DNA from: Lentzea guizhouensis
GTDB lineage: Bacteria; Actinomycetota; Actinomycetes; Mycobacteriales; Pseudonocardiaceae
NCBI RefSeq assembly: GCF_001701025.1
Contig: NZ_CP016793.1
Coordinates: 4,588,001 to 4,652,000, forward strand
DNA length: 64,000 bases
Direction of reading: 5' to 3'
A model generated the notes under the pieces. The model did no database searches, was not told the origin of the DNA, and was given only the letters and a program-made list of their open reading frames with translations. Numbering within the stretch: the stretch's first letter is position 1; every line of letters starts with the position of its first letter. The position numbers were made by a program, and so were the translations under genes. Below, in pieces: positions 29,434 to 39,399 of the stretch.

Positions 29434-31979
29434 CGGCACCCGCGCGGGTCGGTGGGCCGTCCCCACGCGACCGCTCCAAGGACAAGCAGGCCGACGGCGA
29501 CAAGGCCCGCCGCCGGTCGGCGGCGGCCGACCGCGCGTACGCCCGCAGGGCTCAACGCGCGCAGAACCTGCGCAGTGGCTCGCCCGCGCCGCAGCAGAAC
29601 CAGAAGCAGGCGTCCAAGGCGCCGTTCGTCGTGCTCGTGATGCTCGTGCTGGTCGCGGGCATCGCCGGGATCATGTACTTCTCCACGCAGGCCGCCGCCG
29701 ACTCCTACCGGTTGCAGGAGGCGAGGGCCGAGCAGGAGAAGCTGACGCTGCGGGTCGAGCAGCTGCGCCGGGAGGTCACGCTGCTGGAGTCGCCGACCGA
29801 CCTCGCGCGGCGGGCCACCGAGATGGGCCTGGTGCAGCCGTCGAACCCGGCGAGGCTGCGGCAGCTGCCGGACGGCACGATCGAGGAGTTCGGCAAGCCG
29901 AGCGCGCCGACGAAGTCCACGCCGCCGCCACCGCCGTCGACGACCACTCCACCGGCCGGTGAGCAGCAGCCTCCCGCCGGGACCACGCCGCCCGCGGGGG
30001 AACAGGCCGCCGGCGACGTGGCCGCGAACCCACCCGACGCCGCCGGCGGGTGGCTGATGCCGGGACCGCAGCAGAGGGGCCCGCGCCGGCCGTTGTCCGT
30101 GCGCGGTCCCGCTCCCAAGGCCCGCACCGGCGGCAACAGCAAGGTGCGCATCTCCGTCGGCCGGGTGCTGCTGATCGGCGCGCTGCTGGCCGCCGGGCTG
30201 AAGCTCGTGCAGGTGCAGGGGCTGCAGGCCGACGAGCTGTCGGCGCAGGCCCGGCTGCAGCGCACGACGTACCTGAACATCCCCGCCGAACGCGGCGCGA
30301 TCCTCGACCGCAACGGCAACCAGCTCGCGTTCTCGGTCGAGGTGCGCGCGCTCTACATCCTTCCGCAGCGTGCCAGGAAGAACTGGGACACCGAGCGCGA
30401 GAAGGAGAAGGACAAGGCGACCAAGCAGTTCCCGCAGACCTACGACGAGCACGCCCGTGACGTCGCGAAGTTCGTCTCCGCGACGCTGGGCCCGCAGGCC
30501 AACGGCGAGAAGACCGACGAGGAGTCGATCTACGAGCAGCTGGTCGCGGACATCAGCTACGAGGTGCTGGTCAGCGAGGCCGAGCCGACCAAGGCCGCCG
30601 CGGTCGTCGCCAAGTACCCGTCGGAGATCGGCTCGGAGTACCGCGCCAAGCGGATCTACCCGAACGGCCAGGTCGCCTCCAACATCATCGGCGCCGCGAA
30701 CTGGCGCCAGGACGAGAAGCCGCCGACCACCCAGGGCATCCTGGGCCTGGAGAACGCGGCGGACAACGTGCTGGCCGGTCGCATGGGACGCCGGGTCGTC
30801 GACACCATGTCGGGCAACGACACGCTCGTCATCCCGAACACCGAGCGCGAGCTGACCAAACCGCAGCCGGGCAAGTCGCTCGAGCTCACGATCGACGTCG
30901 ACACCCAGTACGCGGTCCAGCGGATGGTCACCGACTACACGCAGAAGTCGGGCGCCCGCAGCGGTTCCGCCGTCGTGCTCGACTCGCACACCGGCGAGAT
31001 CATCGCCATGGCCAACGACCAGACCTACGACCCGACCGACTTCGGCAAGGCCACCGACGCCCAGAAGCGCAACCGCGCCGTCGCCGACACCTTCGAGCCC
31101 GGCTCGGTGAACAAGATCGTCACCGCCGCGGCCGCCGTCGAGTACGGCCTGTTCAAGCCGGACGACGTGCTCCAGGTCCCCGGTTTCCTCCCGGTCGCCG
31201 ACCGGGAGATCAGGGACGCGTGGAACCACGGCACGGTGCCGATGTCGTTCACCGGCGTGTTCGCGAAGTCCTCGAACGTCGGCACTCTGCTGGCCGCGCA
31301 GGAGGTCGGCCAGGAGCGCTACGCCGAGATGCTGCAGAAGTTCGGCCTCGGCAAGCGCACCCAGTCCGGTGTGCCCGGCGAGGAGTCCGGCACGGTACCG
31401 CCGCTGAACCAGTGGTCCGGCTCGACCTTCGGCAACCTGCCGATCGGCCAGGGCCTCTCGATGAACCTGCTGCAGATGACGGCGATGTACCAGACCATCG
31501 CCAACGACGGCCTGCGCGTGCCGCCGCGGCTGGTCCGCGCCGAGATCGCCGCCGACGGCTCGCGCTCGGAGAAGCAGCGGCCGGAGGGCGTGCGGGTCGT
31601 GTCCCCGGAGACCGCGAAGACCGTCCGCGACATGTTCCGCTCCGTGACTCAGTCGAACCCGCGTGACGCCAACCAGAACGGCACCGGTGCGAAGGCGGCG
31701 CTGCCCGGTTACCAGATCGCGGGCAAGACCGGCACGGCCCAGCAGATCGACCCGACCTGCAAGTGCTACTCGCAGGTCGACCACTGGATCACCTTCGCCG
31801 GCATCCTGCCCGCGGACAACCCGCGCTACGTGGTCGGCATCATGCTCGACCGCCCGCAGGGAACGCAGTTCAGCTCGTCGGCCGCGCCGCTGTTCCACGA
31901 CATCGCCGCGTTCCTGACGCAGCGGTTCCAGGTGCCGATGTCGAACGAGCAGACCCCGTACGTCCAGTTGCAGCTCTAA
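29430..31979 (+). CDS. ftsI: FtsL-like domain fused in frame to FtsI/PBP3
   Basis: One open frame of 849 codons. Residues 1-209 are FtsL-like: basic N-terminus, one membrane helix ([21 protein letters not shown]), a coiled coil ([21 protein letters not shown]) and a Pro-rich tail. From residue 210 ([13 protein letters not shown]) a complete septal transpeptidase FtsI follows: its own membrane helix, dimerisation domain, and SxxK at 559-562 (EPGSVNKI), SxN at 614-616 (KSSN) and KTG at 766. Both units are normally separate genes. Both normally have their N-termini in the cytoplasm, so a true fusion would be topologically awkward. A TGATG in the neighbouring frame sits exactly at the boundary. 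Confidence 0.88.
30057..31979 (+). other. ftsI: FtsI unit with likely internal start
   Basis: ATG 30057 begins the expected separate FtsI of 640 residues (active-site Ser350 in this numbering). The sequence GGCTGATGCC provides the usual TGATG stop/start overlap if the preceding ftsL is read in the next frame, where it would end PAGG. Division transpeptidase activity is unaffected either way. Confidence 0.6.
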
Positions 31980-33175
31980 CAGGGCTTGCGCAGCACGGTT
32001 CCGGTCGTCCCCGGCAACGCCACGAAGCTCACCGACGCGTTCTTCTCGTTGATGTGCTTCTCCTTCAGCCGCACGGTGATCGGCGCGCTGCCGGTCCTGT
32101 TCGCGTTGACGACCACGGTGCCGCACGCGAAGTCGCGCTGGAACACGTTGGTGTCCACGGGGAAGTGGGCACCGAGCGGCTCACCGAGGTCCCAGTCGTA
32201 CTCGGCCCGCCACGGCGAAGCGTTGTCGTACCGGTCGGTCTCCGCGATCTCGGAGATCGCCGCGCGCTCCCCCTTGGCCAGCAGGTAGCTCGCGAAGGCG
32301 TAGCGGAACGGCTGCTCGGCACCGCTGTGGTGCGCCTGCACCCAGGTGATCTTGCCCTTGGCCTCGTTGGCGGTGATCTCCGCGAGCTGCCGGCCGAACC
32401 CCTGCGGGTACTCCGACAGCAGGTCCTTGTCGCCGAACGTCAGCCACCACTCGTCGAAGCCGCCGTCGAGGTGCTCGACATAGCTGTCCCAGGCACCGTC
32501 GTGCAGGCGGGCGTTGGACAGGTTGGCCACCGTCTTCAGCCCGGCGTCGACGAACTTCTGCCGGGTGTTGGCGAGCATCGAGCGGTAGGCCGCGCGCATG
32601 GCCTCGTCGGTCGGGTACGCCTTGGGACAGACACCATCGTGGTAGGTGTCGCAGGCGAACAGCGCGTTGTCCATGAACACGCCGTCGAAGACATTGCGCG
32701 ACGAGGCGATCACGTTGTCGGCCCAGGCGTTCTGGTAAGCGGCGTTACCGACGTCCATCTGCCAATGCCCGCCATATCCGTCGTACTCGAACCGCTGACC
32801 GTCCGGGCCGAGCAGGAACCACGACGGATCGGCCGCGCAGTAACCGACTCCGGTGGGCAGATCGGCGTCGTCCACTCCACCCTCGCACGCATAGCTGCGG
32901 GTCGAGGAAAGATCCTTGTAGACGAACGTCTGGATCTTGGGGTTGGCCGCCTTGAGCTGCGCGGCAAGATCGCCTTCCCACGCGTTCAGCACGACGTGCG
33001 AACGGCGCTGTGCCTCTGTTCTGATCATTTCCGGCGTGGTCGGCGTGCTGTTCATGTGCAGCCAGTACGACTCGGTCGTGCGTGTCGGTTCATCGGCCTG
33101 AGCTGCGGGGACCAGTGTCAGTGACAACGCTGAAGCCAAGATCGTGAATCGTGTGAAGCGCACGCCGAACTCCAT
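31976..33175 (-). CDS. Secreted putative glycosyl hydrolase (GHL15-like)
   Basis: 399 residues with a signal peptide (FTILASALSLTLVPAAQADE). The body resembles the hypothetical glycosyl hydrolase family 15-like TIM barrels: WQMDVGNAAYQNAWADNV, VFDGVFMDNALF, and EWWLTFGDKDLL. Carboxylates in these strands are the likely catalytic residues. Several Cys residues (SYACEGG, VGYCAAD, FACDTYHDGVCPK) suggest disulfides, fitting export. The stop overlaps the convergent ftsI stop by four bases. It begins after an AT-rich, palindrome-containing spacer. Its place inside the dcw cluster is unusual; the substrate is unknown. Confidence 0.78.
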   Translation of the reverse strand: MEFGVRFTRFTILASALSLTLVPAAQADEPTRTTESYWLHMNSTPTTPEMIRTEAQRRSHVVLNAWEGDLAAQLKAANPKIQTFVYKDLSSTRSYACEGGVDDADLPTGVGYCAADPSWFLLGPDGQRFEYDGYGGHWQMDVGNAAYQNAWADNVIASSRNVFDGVFMDNALFACDTYHDGVCPKAYPTDEAMRAAYRSMLANTRQKFVDAGLKTVANLSNARLHDGAWDSYVEHLDGGFDEWWLTFGDKDLLSEYPQGFGRQLAEITANEAKGKITWVQAHHSGAEQPFRYAFASYLLAKGERAAISEIAETDRYDNASPWRAEYDWDLGEPLGAHFPVDTNVFQRDFACGTVVVNANRTGSAPITVRLKEKHINEKNASVSFVALPGTTGTVLRKPC

Positions 33176-33194
33176 CTCGCCTTGCTCTCCGGTT

Positions 33195-33275
33195 TGGGAG
33201 TATTAGACGTGATGAAAAGCGTTTTATTAAGAGAATGCGTGACGCGGATTTTCACTGTGAAACAATAATTTTCGC
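33195..33275 (-). promoter_or_regulatory. AT-rich promoter region with palindromic operator
   Basis: An unusually AT-rich patch for this genome lies in front of the GHL15-like gene. It contains TTTCAC-T-GTGAAA at 33250-33262, a 13-base palindrome, and AT-rich -10-like words. It is a likely regulated promoter for the secreted hydrolase. Confidence 0.5.
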
Positions 33276-33346
33276 CATTGTCACGCGTAGGTGTGGCCTG
33301 GCTCACTTGCAAATTCTGGGCTTGTCGCCAAGGATGCGCGACCCAC

Positions 33347-36300
33347 TCAGGCACGGCGGGGGTGCTCACCCGTGATGCCCCACACCAGCTGCTCGAACGG
33401 ATCCGGATCCGGCATCCGCATGTCGACCGTCGACCACACCTTGGTGAACCCCTGGAGCACTTCGAGGTCGCCGTTCGTCCCGGTGAGGATCACCGGGATG
33501 ACCTTCTTGCCGGTGCGCACAGACCAGTCGTTGACCAGTTCCATCTCGGCCTGGTGCCACGGCCCGTGCCCGGACGGCCCGAGCAGCACCGCGGCTGTCT
33601 GGCTCTTCTCGATGCCCTTCGCCATCTCCTGCTGCCAGCGCGTCCCCGGCTGGATGGCGTCGACGTCGAGCCACGGCAGGATCCCGCGCGCCTCCAGCCG
33701 CCGGGCGATCTCCACCACCTGCTGCTTGTCCTTGACGTTGTGGCACAGGAACACGTCGTAGGCGCCTTCGTCCCGCTTGCCCTTCAGCTTCACCGCCGCG
33801 ACATCCTGATCGCGTTGCGCGTCGGCGTTGGTGTTCATCTCGACGACGACAGGCCGTACATCTGCGGTTTCGTGGTCCACGAGAGAGATGACCGTCGTCT
33901 CGCAGATAGGGCACTTCATCGCTGTGTGGCCGAGGTGGGCCTTACGCCTGACGATCACCTCGTCCACCACGTAATCGCATGGCTTGCACCGCCGTACCCG
34001 CCGCTGCTGCACCGTGTTGTTCACTGCACGCTGATGGAGGTGCTCGACGACATACGCCTCGAACTGCCGGCGAACGATCGGTTGCGCTTCGTCGTCGTAG
34101 TACAACACCAATTCGCCTTTGCCCTCTTCGAGCTCCCGGATCGCGATGCCGCACTCCCCACCGGCTTCGGCTTGGTAGCTCGCCGAGTTGTGCCACATCG
34201 GTCCGCGCTGGAAGAGCCTGGAGTGCGACAGCCGCACTGCCAACGTCGAGTAGATCGAGTAGAGGTTGCCGTCGAAGGTGAACACCACGTCCTGTCCCGG
34301 CACGTGCGGCGCGTCCGGCCGTTCTCTGGTGAACTGCGACGGGAAGATCAGGTCGACTTCCTTGTCGGTGATCTCCTTCAGTGCGATCTCCCTGCGCAGC
34401 AACTCCTGCACTACCGCGTTGAGCAGGACCCGCTCCTGGTGCTGGTTCGTGAGCCTCTCGGAGATCCGGAACCTGCCCTCGAGCGCGTCGTCCTCCCTGA
34501 CGAACCCCAGCCCGTCCGGCTCGTTCTTGGCCGCCTCGACCAACGACGACGCGTAGGCGTCCAGCAGCTCGGGCCTGAGCAGCACGAATCCGCCGTAGGC
34601 CATCCTGCGCACCACGCCGACGCTTTCCAGACGCCCGATGCACACGGCGAACCGCTCGACCAGGTCGTCCGGCACCTCGTCCTGCGTCCTGGCGAAGCTG
34701 CGGGCGAGGTCGTCCACCGTGGACAGGATGCCGCCCTGTTGCTTCTCCTCCAGCACGAAGTCCTTGATGGCCTCGAACAACGCGTTCGAACTCACGACCG
34801 GCAGCGCGCTCCAGTCGATGCCGTCCCTGACCTGGCGCACCAGCTCGTCAACGCCCCAGCCCTCCTTCGCGCTCGTCTCCACGTACCCGTCGAAGCCGAG
34901 CGCCTTGACCGTGGCCTCGATGCGCTCCTGGCTGACGGCCGCGGTCCCGCGATCGGCTCGTGCCGCGACGAGGTAGACGCGCAACCTCCCCGCCGCCAGC
35001 TCGTCGAGCCTGCGGGCCTGGGCCAGCGCACGCCCCCAGTACTGGACGCCGGTGAACGGGTCGGTCTCGCTGCGGGCGTCGAACACGATCAGGGCCACCG
35101 CGACCTCGTTGAGGTGCAGCTGGTGGACCATGCGGTAGCCGGGCTGGCCGGCGAGGTCCCAGAGCAGTGTCTCCCTCGTCTGGACATCTCCCGTCGACGT
35201 GGTGACGTAGGACTTCTCGAACGTCCAGATGTTGCGGCCGTGGGTGGAGTCGGTGGGGGCGAAGGGCTGCCCGCTGAGGACGAGGCCGAGGCCGGACTTG
35301 CCGACGCCGGTGTCGCCGACGAGCACGATCTTGGCGTTGACGTACTGGCGGGCGGTCTTGGCGGCGCCGACGGTGTTCAGCACGTCGTAGTCGAGGCGGA
35401 CGACGTCGACGTGGTTGCCGTCCTTCATCGCGAGCAACGGTTCGGTGGGGTGGAAGGAGAGCCCGCCCCGCAGCCCGACCTCGGTGCGCGGAACGGTGGC
35501 GACGCACTGCCAGTCCCGGCACCGCCAGATCCGCACCGTGAGGTCGGTCGACATCGTCGCGAGGAAGTCGCCGCGCGGCGAGAAGGCCGCGCAGACCAGG
35601 CCTTCGGTGTGTTCGGCCAGCAGCGCGACCGGCTTGTCGGCGACGAGGTCGTAGATCTGGACACCGGTCTCGACGAAGGGGGAGACGGCGGCGATCGCGG
35701 TCGTGGCGTCCGGTACGAAGGCGTCCAGCACCTGGCCACTGGGGTAAACCCGCCACACCCGGGTGAGGTCCGAAGCGCGGAACAGCTTCACCGAACTGCC
35801 GTGCGCGGTGAGGACGTGCGACCCGTCGGTGGTCCACCACGGCTTGGAGGCGAGGCTGACCTGCTTGCCGCCGAACCTGTGCGCCCTCAGCACGGCGCCG
35901 GTACCGGAGTCGAGGATCCTGAGGTCGTCGACGTCCACGACGGCGAGCGCCGCACCGTCGGGTGACCAGCTGATGCGCGCGTGTTGCGAGGCCGTTCCCA
36001 GGCGGCGTGCCTGTGCCGCGTCCAGGCCGGTGAGGACGATCCGGTGACTCTCGTGCGGCCGCACGATCGCGCCCTGCCTCGTCCTGCGCTGCAGCACCGC
36101 CGCGAGCTGGCGGTCCGGGTGCCACGCCATGTCGGACGCCCACCCGAACGGCTCCAGCGCCTGCGGCCCGGTCTCGGTCATCTCCCAGAACGCCAGCAGG
36201 CCCCCGGAGACGGCGGTGAGCAGCCGCCCGTCCGCCGACCAGGCGACCTCCTCGACCGCTTTGGAGCCCGAGTACAGGGCTTGGTGCACGAACTCCACCC

Positions 36301-38539
36301 CGGTCGGCGGTGACTCCGGCCCGGCCTGCACGGAGAGCGCCGTGCGCAGGTTGATGAACCCGTCGCCGATGACGACGGCGGAGTTCAGCGCTTGGCCGTC
36401 CGCAGGCCCCAACGCGCGCCAGAGGCGGAGGAGCTCGGGCTTCGGCGTGTACGCGAGGCTCTCCGGAGCAACGGACAACAGCAGCAGCATCAGGTTGGCC
36501 GAGTAGACCGCCTCGGCCTGGGCGGAGGAGCGGTCGGTGGGCCGGTAGCCGGCGTACCGGCCGACGTCACGTGGTCGCGGGCAGCGCTTCACCAACGCGT
36601 CGAGAGTGCGGAACGACCGGTTCCGATGCGACTGAGTCAGCTCACCCGACAGTTCCGTGACCATCTGCAGGACCTGCGGGCGGGTGGACAGCAGCTGATG
36701 GCACAACAGGGTGAACAGCTCGGTGTCCTCCGGCTCCCGGTCCAGCGCGGTCGCCGCCGCGAGGTCGTCCAGCGAGGCGAGGACGAACGAGGCGATCCGG
36801 TACTCGTCGAGCACCGTCTCGTGCAGCAGGACGGGGGGAAGCCGCCGGACCTGGTGACCGAGCGCGGCGAGATCGGCGTGGAACTCGCTCTCGCTCAGCC
36901 AGGTCCGGCCCCGGTTGAACATCCCCATCGCGGCGACGAGCCAGACGGAGGTGTCGGTGCCCATGCGCTGTGCGTGGCGGTCGAGCACGCGTCCGCGCAG
37001 GACCGCCTTCGACAGACCTGGGCTCGGCCGGGGCAGGTCCGGATCGGTGAGGTGTTCCGCGAGCAGGGACAGGAACAGCGGTGCCCGCGCCAGCTCGCGA
37101 TGGGGCAGCACGCTCTCCGGGGCGAGCGGACGGCGTGCGGTGTTCGCCGTGGCCGCGTTCCACTTCTCGATCCACGAACGGATCTGGTCGTCGTCGAACT
37201 CCTCCAGCCGGACAACCGGTGTGCCGTCCGGGACGAGCACGTGCTTGACCGAGTCGGTCCGCATGGTGATCACCACGGCAACCGGGCGGTCCTGCGCGGC
37301 CGAGCGCTGCTGGAACCGCACGACCTCCGCGAGGTGGTCGGCCTGCGCCAGCGGGTCCAGTCCGTCCAGGACCACGACGCGCAGGTCCCGGTCGAGCTGC
37401 TCCCACCGGACGTGGCCGTCGGTGAGGAGCTCCACCGCGTGCTCGACCTGGCCTTCGAGGGAGGAGTCGCGACCGAACACCTCCTCCGTGGTCACCCGCA
37501 CCACCGCGACGCCGCCGGACGGGGGGTGTGCTGCCAGCGCCTTCGCCAGGGTCGACTTGCCCGCACCGGAGACGCCGATGACCAGCGCGGGGAGCCGGGT
37601 CGCCGCGGCGCTGGTCAGGTGGGACTCGAGAAACCGGTCCAGGTCGTGGCGCACCGGCACCTCGGCCGTCCACCAGTCGTCGTCGGTCAACCGCGCGGAC
37701 GGACCTGCCTCAATGGCACGGAAACGGGGACTGACGTAGGTCTGGCTGAGAGGCGGCAGACTCGCGTCACCCGTCGGCGGCTCGTGGAACGCGGACAGGT
37801 TCGCCGCGAGCACGATCTCGCGCTCCCTGACGTTCGACATGGCCGCGCGGGTCTCGCTCAGCTCGTCGGAGAACAAGACGTCGAGCATCCGGGTGTAGTC
37901 GTCCTCGGGGATCGACGCCCACAGCACGAACTCGCGAATGCCCTCGGCGAGCACCAGGTACCTCCGCCGGTACCGGTCGGTGACGTCGGCCGGGAAGCCG
38001 GGAGCCAGCAGGACGTCGATCCCAGGTCCGGGACTGGACCTCCGCAACGCGCGGTGGATCCGTTCCGACCGGTCCACGACCCACCTGGTGACGTCCGCGA
38101 GGTGGTCGTCGAAGGTGCGGGAGGCCGACGGCGCGGGGACGTCGTCCGAGTACAGGTTGGAGACGAACGAGTGGTCTTCCTGGTGCCAGTCGTCGTCGGC
38201 GGGCGGCTGCAGCCCGGGTGCCCCGAGCAGCACCTCGCGGCTCGCGTCGAACAGCGAGGTCATCAGCAAGGTGGTCTGCACCGCGATGACCAGTTCGCGC
38301 CGCTCCGGCCGCTCGGCCTGGGGTATCCGCCGGGTCGCCTTGTCCAGCGCGTCTGTGACCAGTTGGGGCACAGTGCTCCGCGGCAAGATCCAGCCGTACA
38401 CGCCGAGCATCGACTTGCGCGCCCTGTTCGTGGTGAGCACGTTGCCCAGCCGCCGGTTGACCTGGTCGGTCCAGTGCGTGTCGTACTGGCCGAGCACCGC
38501 CAGGGCACCGCGGAAGTTCGTCGCTGACTCTGACGGCAT
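33347..38539 (-). CDS. STAND NTPase - WD40 - Roc GTPase - TIR multidomain protein
   Basis: 1730 residues. Order: an unassigned ~290-residue N-terminal region; a STAND/NACHT-like ATPase with Walker A VIGVSGAGKSTLAKAL (Lys328) and Walker B RVVVLDGLDPL; helical linker; WD40-type propeller at about 745-1060 (FSPRGDFLATMSTDLTVRIW); a Ras/Roc-type GTPase with KIVLVGDTGVGKSGLG (Lys1081), WDLAGQPGYR (Asp1128) and ETSAKEG; winged-helix/COR-like part; a zinc ribbon (CKPC ... CPIC) near 1515-1550; and a C-terminal TIR domain from Tyr1594 (YDVFLCHN) with candidate catalytic Glu1665 (WHQAEMEL). Sensor-switch-effector layouts of this kind occur in bacterial immunity. TAGCAT ends six bases before the ATG, so it likely has its own leaderless promoter. 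Confidence 0.88.
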   Translation of the reverse strand: MPSESATNFRGALAVLGQYDTHWTDQVNRRLGNVLTTNRARKSMLGVYGWILPRSTVPQLVTDALDKATRRIPQAERPERRELVIAVQTTLLMTSLFDASREVLLGAPGLQPPADDDWHQEDHSFVSNLYSDDVPAPSASRTFDDHLADVTRWVVDRSERIHRALRRSSPGPGIDVLLAPGFPADVTDRYRRRYLVLAEGIREFVLWASIPEDDYTRMLDVLFSDELSETRAAMSNVREREIVLAANLSAFHEPPTGDASLPPLSQTYVSPRFRAIEAGPSARLTDDDWWTAEVPVRHDLDRFLESHLTSAAATRLPALVIGVSGAGKSTLAKALAAHPPSGGVAVVRVTTEEVFGRDSSLEGQVEHAVELLTDGHVRWEQLDRDLRVVVLDGLDPLAQADHLAEVVRFQQRSAAQDRPVAVVITMRTDSVKHVLVPDGTPVVRLEEFDDDQIRSWIEKWNAATANTARRPLAPESVLPHRELARAPLFLSLLAEHLTDPDLPRPSPGLSKAVLRGRVLDRHAQRMGTDTSVWLVAAMGMFNRGRTWLSESEFHADLAALGHQVRRLPPVLLHETVLDEYRIASFVLASLDDLAAATALDREPEDTELFTLLCHQLLSTRPQVLQMVTELSGELTQSHRNRSFRTLDALVKRCPRPRDVGRYAGYRPTDRSSAQAEAVYSANLMLLLLSVAPESLAYTPKPELLRLWRALGPADGQALNSAVVIGDGFINLRTALSVQAGPESPPTGVEFVHQALYSGSKAVEEVAWSADGRLLTAVSGGLLAFWEMTETGPQALEPFGWASDMAWHPDRQLAAVLQRRTRQGAIVRPHESHRIVLTGLDAAQARRLGTASQHARISWSPDGAALAVVDVDDLRILDSGTGAVLRAHRFGGKQVSLASKPWWTTDGSHVLTAHGSSVKLFRASDLTRVWRVYPSGQVLDAFVPDATTAIAAVSPFVETGVQIYDLVADKPVALLAEHTEGLVCAAFSPRGDFLATMSTDLTVRIWRCRDWQCVATVPRTEVGLRGGLSFHPTEPLLAMKDGNHVDVVRLDYDVLNTVGAAKTARQYVNAKIVLVGDTGVGKSGLGLVLSGQPFAPTDSTHGRNIWTFEKSYVTTSTGDVQTRETLLWDLAGQPGYRMVHQLHLNEVAVALIVFDARSETDPFTGVQYWGRALAQARRLDELAAGRLRVYLVAARADRGTAAVSQERIEATVKALGFDGYVETSAKEGWGVDELVRQVRDGIDWSALPVVSSNALFEAIKDFVLEEKQQGGILSTVDDLARSFARTQDEVPDDLVERFAVCIGRLESVGVVRRMAYGGFVLLRPELLDAYASSLVEAAKNEPDGLGFVREDDALEGRFRISERLTNQHQERVLLNAVVQELLRREIALKEITDKEVDLIFPSQFTRERPDAPHVPGQDVVFTFDGNLYSIYSTLAVRLSHSRLFQRGPMWHNSASYQAEAGGECGIAIRELEEGKGELVLYYDDEAQPIVRRQFEAYVVEHLHQRAVNNTVQQRRVRRCKPCDYVVDEVIVRRKAHLGHTAMKCPICETTVISLVDHETADVRPVVVEMNTNADAQRDQDVAAVKLKGKRDEGAYDVFLCHNVKDKQQVVEIARRLEARGILPWLDVDAIQPGTRWQQEMAKGIEKSQTAAVLLGPSGHGPWHQAEMELVNDWSVRTGKKVIPVILTGTNGDLEVLQGFTKVWSTVDMRMPDPDPFEQLVWGITGEHPRRA

Positions 38540-38583
38540 CCGGCCATGCTAGAGAACGGCGTACGCCCCCGAACTAACTCCGG

Positions 38584-39399
38584 TCAGCCCTTCACCCGGT
38601 TGTCGTGCATCGGCTCCGGCCGCGCCACCAGCACCGGGCAGGACGAGTGGTAGAGCGCCGCCCGCGTGATCAACCCGACCCCGTCGTGCCGCCCACCCCG
38701 CGCGACCACCACGAGGTCCGAGTCGAGCGACGCCAACGCCTCGTGCGGGTGCCGCGACTCGACGACGACCTCGGGGGTCAGTTCGGGAGCGGTGGTGCGC
38801 AAGAACAACACGGCCTGCCTCAAAGCAGCCTCGTCCCGCGGCACGACGACACCGCCCTGCGCCGGCGGGTGCACGTGCAGCAGGCGCAACGAGGCGCGGC
38901 GGGTGCGGCAGAACTCGACGGCGCGGCGCAGGACGAGCGGGTCCTCGCAGCCGCCGACCGCCGCGGTGATCCAGCCGTGCTCGCCGCGGACGGCGGGGGG
39001 CCGGCCGCGCACGACGACGACGCCGCAGTGGGCGCGGCGCAACACCGGGAGGACGAGGGAGCCCAGACCCAGGCTGCGGTGCTGTTCGCCTTTGCACCCC
39101 AAGACCAAGGTCGCGCTGGAGTCCGACGCCCTCACCAGTGCGGCCACCGGGTCGTCGCCACTGGGGCGGAAGTGGGCGGTGAGCATCGGGAGTCGTTCGA
39201 GGACACGTTGGACGGTCGTGTCCGCCGGGTCGGCGAGGTAGACCTGGAGGTCCGTGCGCAGCGACCACGCGTGGCGCGCCGCCCACTCGAACGCGTGGTA
39301 CGCGGACTCCGAAGTGTCCACGCCGACCGTGACCGAACGACTGAAATCGGGAGCCCAGAAGGAAAACCGCCTGGGTTCCGCCGCCGTGCTGGTTTTCAT
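38584..39399 (-). CDS. Universal stress protein, tandem USP domains
   Basis: 271 residues containing two UspA-like folds. The first is SVTVGVDTSESAYHAFEWAARHA ... ATLVLGCKGEQHRSLGLGSLV; the second has WITAAVGGCEDPLVLRRAVEF ... SDLVVVARGGRHDGVGLITRAAL. Partial ATP-loop glycine patterns are kept. AGGAGG lies six bases before the ATG. The gene sits 44 bases upstream of the giant STAND-TIR gene on the same strand, so some co-transcription is possible although that gene appears to have its own promoter. The role is probably in a stress or dormancy response; no specific partner can be named. Confidence 0.88.
   Translation of the reverse strand: MKTSTAAEPRRFSFWAPDFSRSVTVGVDTSESAYHAFEWAARHAWSLRTDLQVYLADPADTTVQRVLERLPMLTAHFRPSGDDPVAALVRASDSSATLVLGCKGEQHRSLGLGSLVLPVLRRAHCGVVVVRGRPPAVRGEHGWITAAVGGCEDPLVLRRAVEFCRTRRASLRLLHVHPPAQGGVVVPRDEAALRQAVLFLRTTAPELTPEVVVESRHPHEALASLDSDLVVVARGGRHDGVGLITRAALYHSSCPVLVARPEPMHDNRVKG

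Follow-up and report, generated by a model that had tools for sequence, protein, structure and literature searches.

The window, the whole stretch of 64,000 nucleotides analysed here, is a portion of a single 10.0 Mb contig of Lentzea guizhouensis and contains, at positions 33347..38539 of the minus strand, a giant gene encoding a protein of 1730 aa with the domain order NNH7, NACHT, WD40, Ras/Roc GTPase, COR-like region, zinc ribbon and TIR. The gene is a single open frame of 1730 codons (ATG at 38539, stop at 33347-33349), its GC content by codon position is 0.70/0.46/0.92, and its coding score is the top one among the gene calls made in the window; a plus-strand reading of 33347-38539 is ruled out by stops. 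The frame and the coding signal bear out the single 1730-residue chain proposed in a preliminary description, which had overlooked the minus strand and the NNH7 domain. The gene order by Pfam is mraW, ftsI, GHL15, the giant gene, Usp, murE, murF, mraY, murD and ftsW. One border of the site is the gene of a universal stress protein (Usp; 38584..39321, minus strand) and the other is a glycosyl-hydrolase-like gene, GHL15 (31976..32992, minus strand), inverted here. The giant gene follows Usp on the same strand after 44 nt, and in the leader between the Usp stop and the giant ATG (38540..38583, minus strand) a TAGCAT ends 6 nt before the ATG. The arrangement TAGNNT-N6-ATG is found in all seven Lentzea carriers examined (the eighth, G002, is not among them), and its retention six bases ahead of the ATG suggests that the gene has its own leaderless promoter, with TAGNNT as a possible -10 element.

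Residues 5-210 (37910..38527, minus strand) match NNH7, the NACHT N-terminal helical domain 7 (Pfam PF22738, 1.6e-32), and are helical in the predicted structure, with 10-residue blocks mostly at pLDDT 80-97. Behind them lies a NACHT module that includes NLR-like helical domains (residues 231-733; 36341..37849, minus strand), for which the predicted-structure test gave an NLR-type fold of nucleotide-binding and helical/winged domains. The NACHT NTPase feature is present, as the Walker A GVSGAGKS (residues 322-329, including Lys328; 37553..37576, minus strand), conserved in homologues, and a DGLD-type Walker B in the form LDGLD; G322, G327 and D392 are identical in 28/28 full-length homologues, and K328 in 27/28. 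The Pfam NACHT model was absent from the best 25 of the 44 families matching the giant protein, and residues 296-465 gave weak AAA_22, AAA_16 and nSTAND1 matches under their cut-offs. The STAND-like part reported earlier is confirmed and refined, by its predicted fold, to an NLR-type NACHT behind NNH7. The reported WD40 sensor (beta-propeller, residues 745-1056; 35372..36307, minus strand) is likewise supported by the fold test and by Pfam WD40-type propeller matches spanning residues 759-1040. Structure searches with the C-terminal model gave beta-propellers alone among the 50 matches listed, so that they leave the GTPase, the COR-like region and the TIR untouched.

The Ras/Roc-type GTPase (residues 1062-1245; 34805..35356, minus strand), defined by Pfam and by the family alignment, matches Ras at 1070-1237 (3.9e-16) and Roc at 1070-1175 (6.8e-14; 52.6 bits against a cut-off of 27), the Ras profile scoring above Roc, and both profiles match 32/32 family members. 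Its motifs are K1081 (G1), Q1132 in DLAGQPG (G3) and R1194-x-D1196 at G4, a motif that in Ras proteins is NKxD; K1081, D1128, G1131, Q1132, R1194 and D1196 are invariant in the 32 alignment rows. The Ras/Roc-like switch described at Lys1081 has the support of these matches, and both P-loops, with Lys328 in GVSGAGKS and Lys1081 in GDTGVGKS, are conserved in the full-length homologues (K1081 identical in 28/28). The giant protein would be a dual-switch receptor, with NACHT (ATP) and Ras/Roc (GTP) in series before the TIR. The region after the GTPase (residues 1251-1505; 34025..34789, minus strand) is conserved within the family and is called COR-like by position and secondary structure alone, which resemble those of COR. 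Searched by itself it gave no Pfam family at E <= 10; COR was absent from the best 25 of the 45 Pfam families for 32 family members; and a profile of 29 COR-like regions found no Roco structure in the PDB at E <= 10. The best PDB match to that profile, JetB (E 0.028), was treated as chance. A COR domain behind Roc is not confirmed by these searches.

The zinc ribbon of the preliminary description (33860..34024, minus strand) is borne out by its four cysteines (Cys 1518, 1521, 1543 and 1546), which are invariant in 28/28 full-length homologues and in 37/37 rows including shorter relatives. The C-terminal TIR domain (residues 1591-1730; 33350..33769, minus strand) matches Pfam TIR_2 at 1596-1719 (6.4e-20, 72.3 bits against a cut-off of 28), so that the TIR and the Roc readings made earlier from motifs both have profile support. 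A PDB phmmer search related it to 9mud (Cat1, 2.9e-6), 3h16 (1.5e-4), 7uwg (5.1e-4) and 8g83 (AbTIR, 1.1e-3). The proposed candidate NADase catalytic residue, Glu1665 (codon 33545..33547, minus strand), is aligned with the W-x3-E glutamate, catalytic in solved TIR proteins, in the three solved bacterial TIR proteins whose alignments were examined. W1661 and E1665 are identical in 28/28 full-length homologues, and E1665 in 37/37 rows comprising the window protein and 36 of 90 shorter relatives. Thirteen PADLOC families matched at E <= 1, 11 of them over the TIR region and two as weak P-loop matches; the best match was PDC-S66 (5.2e-10), and ThsB reached 4.5e-5. No Avs model matched and, the two weak P-loop matches aside, PADLOC gave no Avs/AVAST or Thoeris match past the TIR domain.

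The homologue set consists of the best 120 of 401 matches to the giant protein, and 29 of them, the window protein included, carry NNH7; those of the 29 with a named organism are from Lentzea, Saccharothrix or Actinosynnema. The full-length set (n = 28) leaves out P0024 (shorter, without NNH7) and P0028 (without a visible TIR); the Saccharothrix and Actinosynnema copies P0029 and P0030 have a shorter front and keep Walker A and B. The 90 proteins P0031-P0120, nearly all of about 950-1030 aa, have no NNH7 in their Pfam lists (some of them partial) and are, as far as listed, WD40-Roc-TIR proteins, with the TIR glutamate present in the 36 aligned. The NCBI or UniRef names of several homologues already refer to NNH7 or TIR. 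Mean pairwise identity in the full-length set is 0.45 for NNH7, 0.41 for the next linker, 0.49 for NACHT, 0.38 for the helical region and 0.45 for WD40, compared with 0.81 for the GTPase, 0.78 for the COR-like region, 0.55 for the zinc ribbon and 0.74 for the TIR. Divergence is much more rapid in the receptor half (0.38-0.49) than in the switch and effector domains, and may come from relaxed constraint.

A profile search with the N-terminal half found stand-alone NNH7-NACHT proteins (P0121-P0131, 841-1101 aa) in hosts including Lentzea flava (42% identity), Actinokineospora, Actinoplanes and Planobispora; at E <= 1e-5, neither P0121 nor P0127 matched WD40, Roc or TIR. Among 297 genomes of the family Pseudonocardiaceae, 76 contain NNH7 (73 above the cut-off), and the GTPase-to-TIR part matches 12 of 297 genomes drawn likewise, eight of the same genus and four of another genus at 33-35%. 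By domain content, the giant protein joins two separately existing types, NNH7-NACHT and WD40-Ras/Roc-TIR, and because the stand-alone types are spread wider, it probably arose by fusion and not they by fission. P0132, considered as a second STAND-Roc-TIR fusion, has domain positions that give Roc, TIR and then an AAA_21-type ATPase, and was not counted. The same genome has a second NNH7 gene (G000:C1:7665303-7665923; L022 9300-12242) in a 980-aa frame, nearer to the Pfam NNH7 model than the giant protein (213.7 against 120.2 bits). Two other NNH7 matches (G076:C1:6302669-6303301 and G138:C30:81824-82465) lie in frames of 1595 and 1517 codons, exceeding the usual 950-1150, and are possible other NNH7 fusions.

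At least 109 relatives were confirmed in other genomes, and 80 loci were kept (78 non-Lentzea), from Cyanobacteria, Chloroflexi, Planctomycetes, Actinobacteria, Acidobacteria, Methanosarcina and others. By family profiles, the TIR lies behind the GTPase in 42 loci and ahead of it in four, 32 have none and two are fragments. Ten C-terminal pieces of the 32 gave three TIR (two also SEFIR), two guanylate cyclase, four DUF4365 and one nothing; further effectors are a cyclase in L130 and DUF4365 in the second gene of L127. Effectors are thus exchanged on one WD40-Roc core: TIR, SEFIR/TIR, guanylate cyclase and DUF4365. The proteins with a guanylate-cyclase-type domain at the C end of this core (L107, L110 and L130, from Algicola, Methanosarcina and Acidobacteria) are possibly a nucleotide-signal version of it. 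Locus ORFs were taken from stop to stop, so the long N-terminal parts of L127, L128 and L130 are perhaps untranslated, and no fusion is claimed for them. On a Calothrix plasmid (L082 12630-15809) two ORFs, each matching TIR twice, come after the WD40-Roc-TIR gene, with one further TIR ORF on the opposite strand, and Paractinoplanes toevensis has two tandem WD40-Roc-TIR genes (L128 9569-15567).

A NACHT gene is divergent to the WD40-Roc-TIR gene in five of the 12 cyanobacterial loci (L088, L089, L092, L105 and L132), some of the 12 having incomplete flanks (374 bases upstream in L122); these are five of the 78 non-Lentzea loci, all Nostocales, many of the 78 having short flanks. The paired NACHT product is of about 800 aa, and the three products examined contain both NACHT and NCH2. 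Likeness among the paired proteins is 56-97%, and their outer flanks form three contexts (L088 and L105; L092 and L132; L089); a profile of the five NACHT proteins found no further case among the 80 loci. Downstream of the NACHT gene there is a related gene in four of the five pairs, with many hydrophobic segments in the three copies tested, and a gene related to a Nuc_deoxyri_tr2 protein (one copy tested) is present in three of the five. The hydrophobic-segment protein (L088 5752-6813, L092 4554-5603, L089 4941-6035) has about 350 aa, and no Pfam family was found for it. In the acidobacterial L136, whose gene starts at a contig edge, DUF4365 and a weak TPR are followed by an NB-ARC/AAA_14-like ATPase at the C end (weak matches: AAA_14 3.2e-7, NB-ARC 3.7e-5). 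We tentatively propose that bacteria have a recurrent, undescribed partnership between STAND ATPases and WD40-Ras/Roc proteins, existing as divergent genes in Nostocales, as a single chain in Lentzea and related genera and as the NB-ARC-like acidobacterial fusion. The Lentzea protein would then be a one-chain coincidence detector whose TIR acts when the ATP switch and the GTP switch have both fired, and the dcw cluster would contain a site of gain, loss and perhaps interspecies exchange of such receptors.

Several known systems resemble parts of the giant protein. What LRRK2 and CtRoco have in common with it is a Roc-type GTPase and, behind this, a region like COR in position and secondary structure; unlike them, the giant protein has a Ras profile above Roc, no COR match, a TIR in place of the kinase and the NACHT fusion. 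Plant TIR-NLRs have a TIR, a STAND ATPase and a repeat sensor in one chain; here the TIR is at the C end, NACHT replaces NB-ARC and there is an extra GTPase, so this is likeness and not membership. To our knowledge, known NLR receptors have one nucleotide switch per chain. Cat1 and AbTIR, which their available entries list as NAD+ degrading or as NAD(+) hydrolase, belong to the same TIR sequence family, with the Glu aligned in Cat1; Cat1 is activated through CARF, whereas the giant protein would instead be controlled by two NTPase switches in cis. The bNACHT family, which gives phage defence, has the order N-terminal effector, central NACHT, C-terminal sensor in the available part of its description (PMC12169576), and resembles the giant protein in the NACHT module with predicted NLR fold, the Walker A/B and the variable sensor; that order is not found here, since the giant protein opens with NNH7, has WD40 centrally and closes with the TIR, which comes after the GTPase as a second switch. 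AP-GTPase (Roc)-COR proteins, predicted conflict systems with LRR ahead and at least 24 C-terminal domains including TIR in the available part of Kaur et al. 2021 (PMC8195603), share the Ras-like GTPase switch, the repeat domain before it and the interchangeable C-terminal effectors; the giant protein differs in having WD40 for LRR, COR not confirmed and an NNH7-NACHT receptor fused in front. No NACHT/STAND, Roc/Ras and TIR in one chain was found in the open-access literature, although the Figure 6 source data of PMC8195603 may list such proteins, and the available parts of PMC7159879, PMC10907252 and PMC4316618 describe no NACHT and Roc in one chain. This agrees with the earlier view that the architecture lies outside the standard described ones: the parts are known already, and the two-switch combination is new. 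Bacterial relatives of NLR, of LRRK2/DAPK-type GTPases and of SARM1-type TIR are united in one molecule which, together with the gene pairs of cyanobacteria, makes a possible cooperation between NLR and Roco-type switches directly testable.

The site was compared in 24 Lentzea genomes by means of a murE anchor and tblastn of each domain. The giant gene is present in eight (P0001 query, E <= 1e-100), including the window's genome, G000, and lies between ftsI and murE in all of them; in the seven others it is flanked by Usp and GHL15 and has an unchanged orientation relative to Usp/murE (across a contig break in G002). None of the 16 non-carriers has it at the site, whereas Usp is kept in 16/16 and GHL15 in 15/16. 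The Usp and GHL15 stop codons overlap by 4 bp in ten of the 16 empty sites; G012 is similar with a TGA stop, and G022 has 46 bp of other sequence between the two genes. Deletion scars in G006 and G014 retain the giant gene's leader and last codons, and G013 has a possible scar. On the murE tree, which is weak in parts, the sister genomes are G016 for G000, with a clean site, and G014 for G009, with a scar; presence requires five changes, at least three forced by well-supported branches, and clustering of the carriers does not exceed chance (35 of 500 shuffles gave a value as low). Besides G000, whole open frames, measured stop to stop, are found in G001 (1682 codons), G002 (1669) and G010 (1629). 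Frames are split in G003, G009, G011 and G020, with the end of WD40 and most of the GTPase, P-loop included, missing in G009; the relatives are all drafts, so some split frames may be assembly errors. No strong inverted repeats were found at the site borders. From these comparisons the giant gene is accessory, being present, absent, deleted or split at one Lentzea site. Confinement of homologues to housekeeping loci, a concern raised beforehand, holds for the eight Lentzea carriers, which have the gene only in dcw, but as an accessory gene lacking from 16 of 24 genomes; it does not hold in other phyla, where relatives lie elsewhere, cyanobacterial plasmids included.

Taken together, the gain, loss and decay at a constant site, the fast receptor half, the invariant catalytic residues, the NLR fold, the interchangeable effectors and the recurrent pairing with STAND ATPases make us lean towards an NLR-like immune receptor, accessory and dual-switch, whose TIR would cleave NAD and which would probably act in abortive antiphage defence. 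Its fast-diverging part (NNH7, NACHT, helical region and WD40) would sense a signal that either derives from an invader or is a perturbed one of the host; the NACHT, whose fold is predicted, would be driven to oligomerise by nucleotide exchange, as in NLRs; the Ras/Roc GTPase, whose motifs are present, would then be switched, possibly as a threshold or timer via GTP hydrolysis; and GTPase and zinc ribbon would gather the TIR domains, which may cleave NAD+ via the conserved Glu1665, halting growth or killing the infected compartment. Against defence, dcw genes flank the gene and the locus is no defence island. The giant protein had no match in 50,697 phage records and no confirmed relative on viral contigs, and three of 72,556 plasmid records match, one by the TIR part only.

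The TIR could instead be a scaffold or make a signalling nucleotide (e.g. a cADPR isomer) for a separate effector, like ThsB, with no NAD+ depletion. The weak ThsB matches over the TIR region are consistent with this, as are the possible partners in the cyanobacterial pairs, i.e. the hydrophobic-segment and Nuc_deoxyri_tr2-related proteins, but scans of ten neighbouring genes in the window, and of the interval from Usp to GHL15 in carriers, found no effector-like partner, and we consider this alternative unlikely. A sentinel of cell wall or stress, acting on the dcw/peptidoglycan pathway or with Usp, whose TIR would trigger programmed death or development on wall damage, would fit the constant position between ftsI and murE and the short distance from Usp; this dcw housekeeping explanation is made improbable by the 16 genomes that lack the gene yet have Usp and, in 15, GHL15, and it is further opposed by the promoter-like leader in the seven carriers examined and by the different contexts of relatives in other phyla. 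Still less probable is a decaying selfish or neutral passenger of little present function, maintained through recombination in a tolerant stretch between genes, as the split frames, the GTPase loss in G009 and the scars could suggest, since K1081, E1665 and the zinc cysteines would not have stayed identical in 28/28 homologues under neutral decay, half of the carriers keep one open frame and draft assemblies may account for some splits.

Two other features of the site concern its borders. In G019, the most diverged member of the genus, GHL15 was not found, and about 3 kb of extra sequence lies between murE and Usp (L067 2590-5637). In the window, GHL15 and its upstream region (31976-33340) are inverted, facing ftsI, whereas GHL15 is on the ftsI strand in the 22 relatives that have it.
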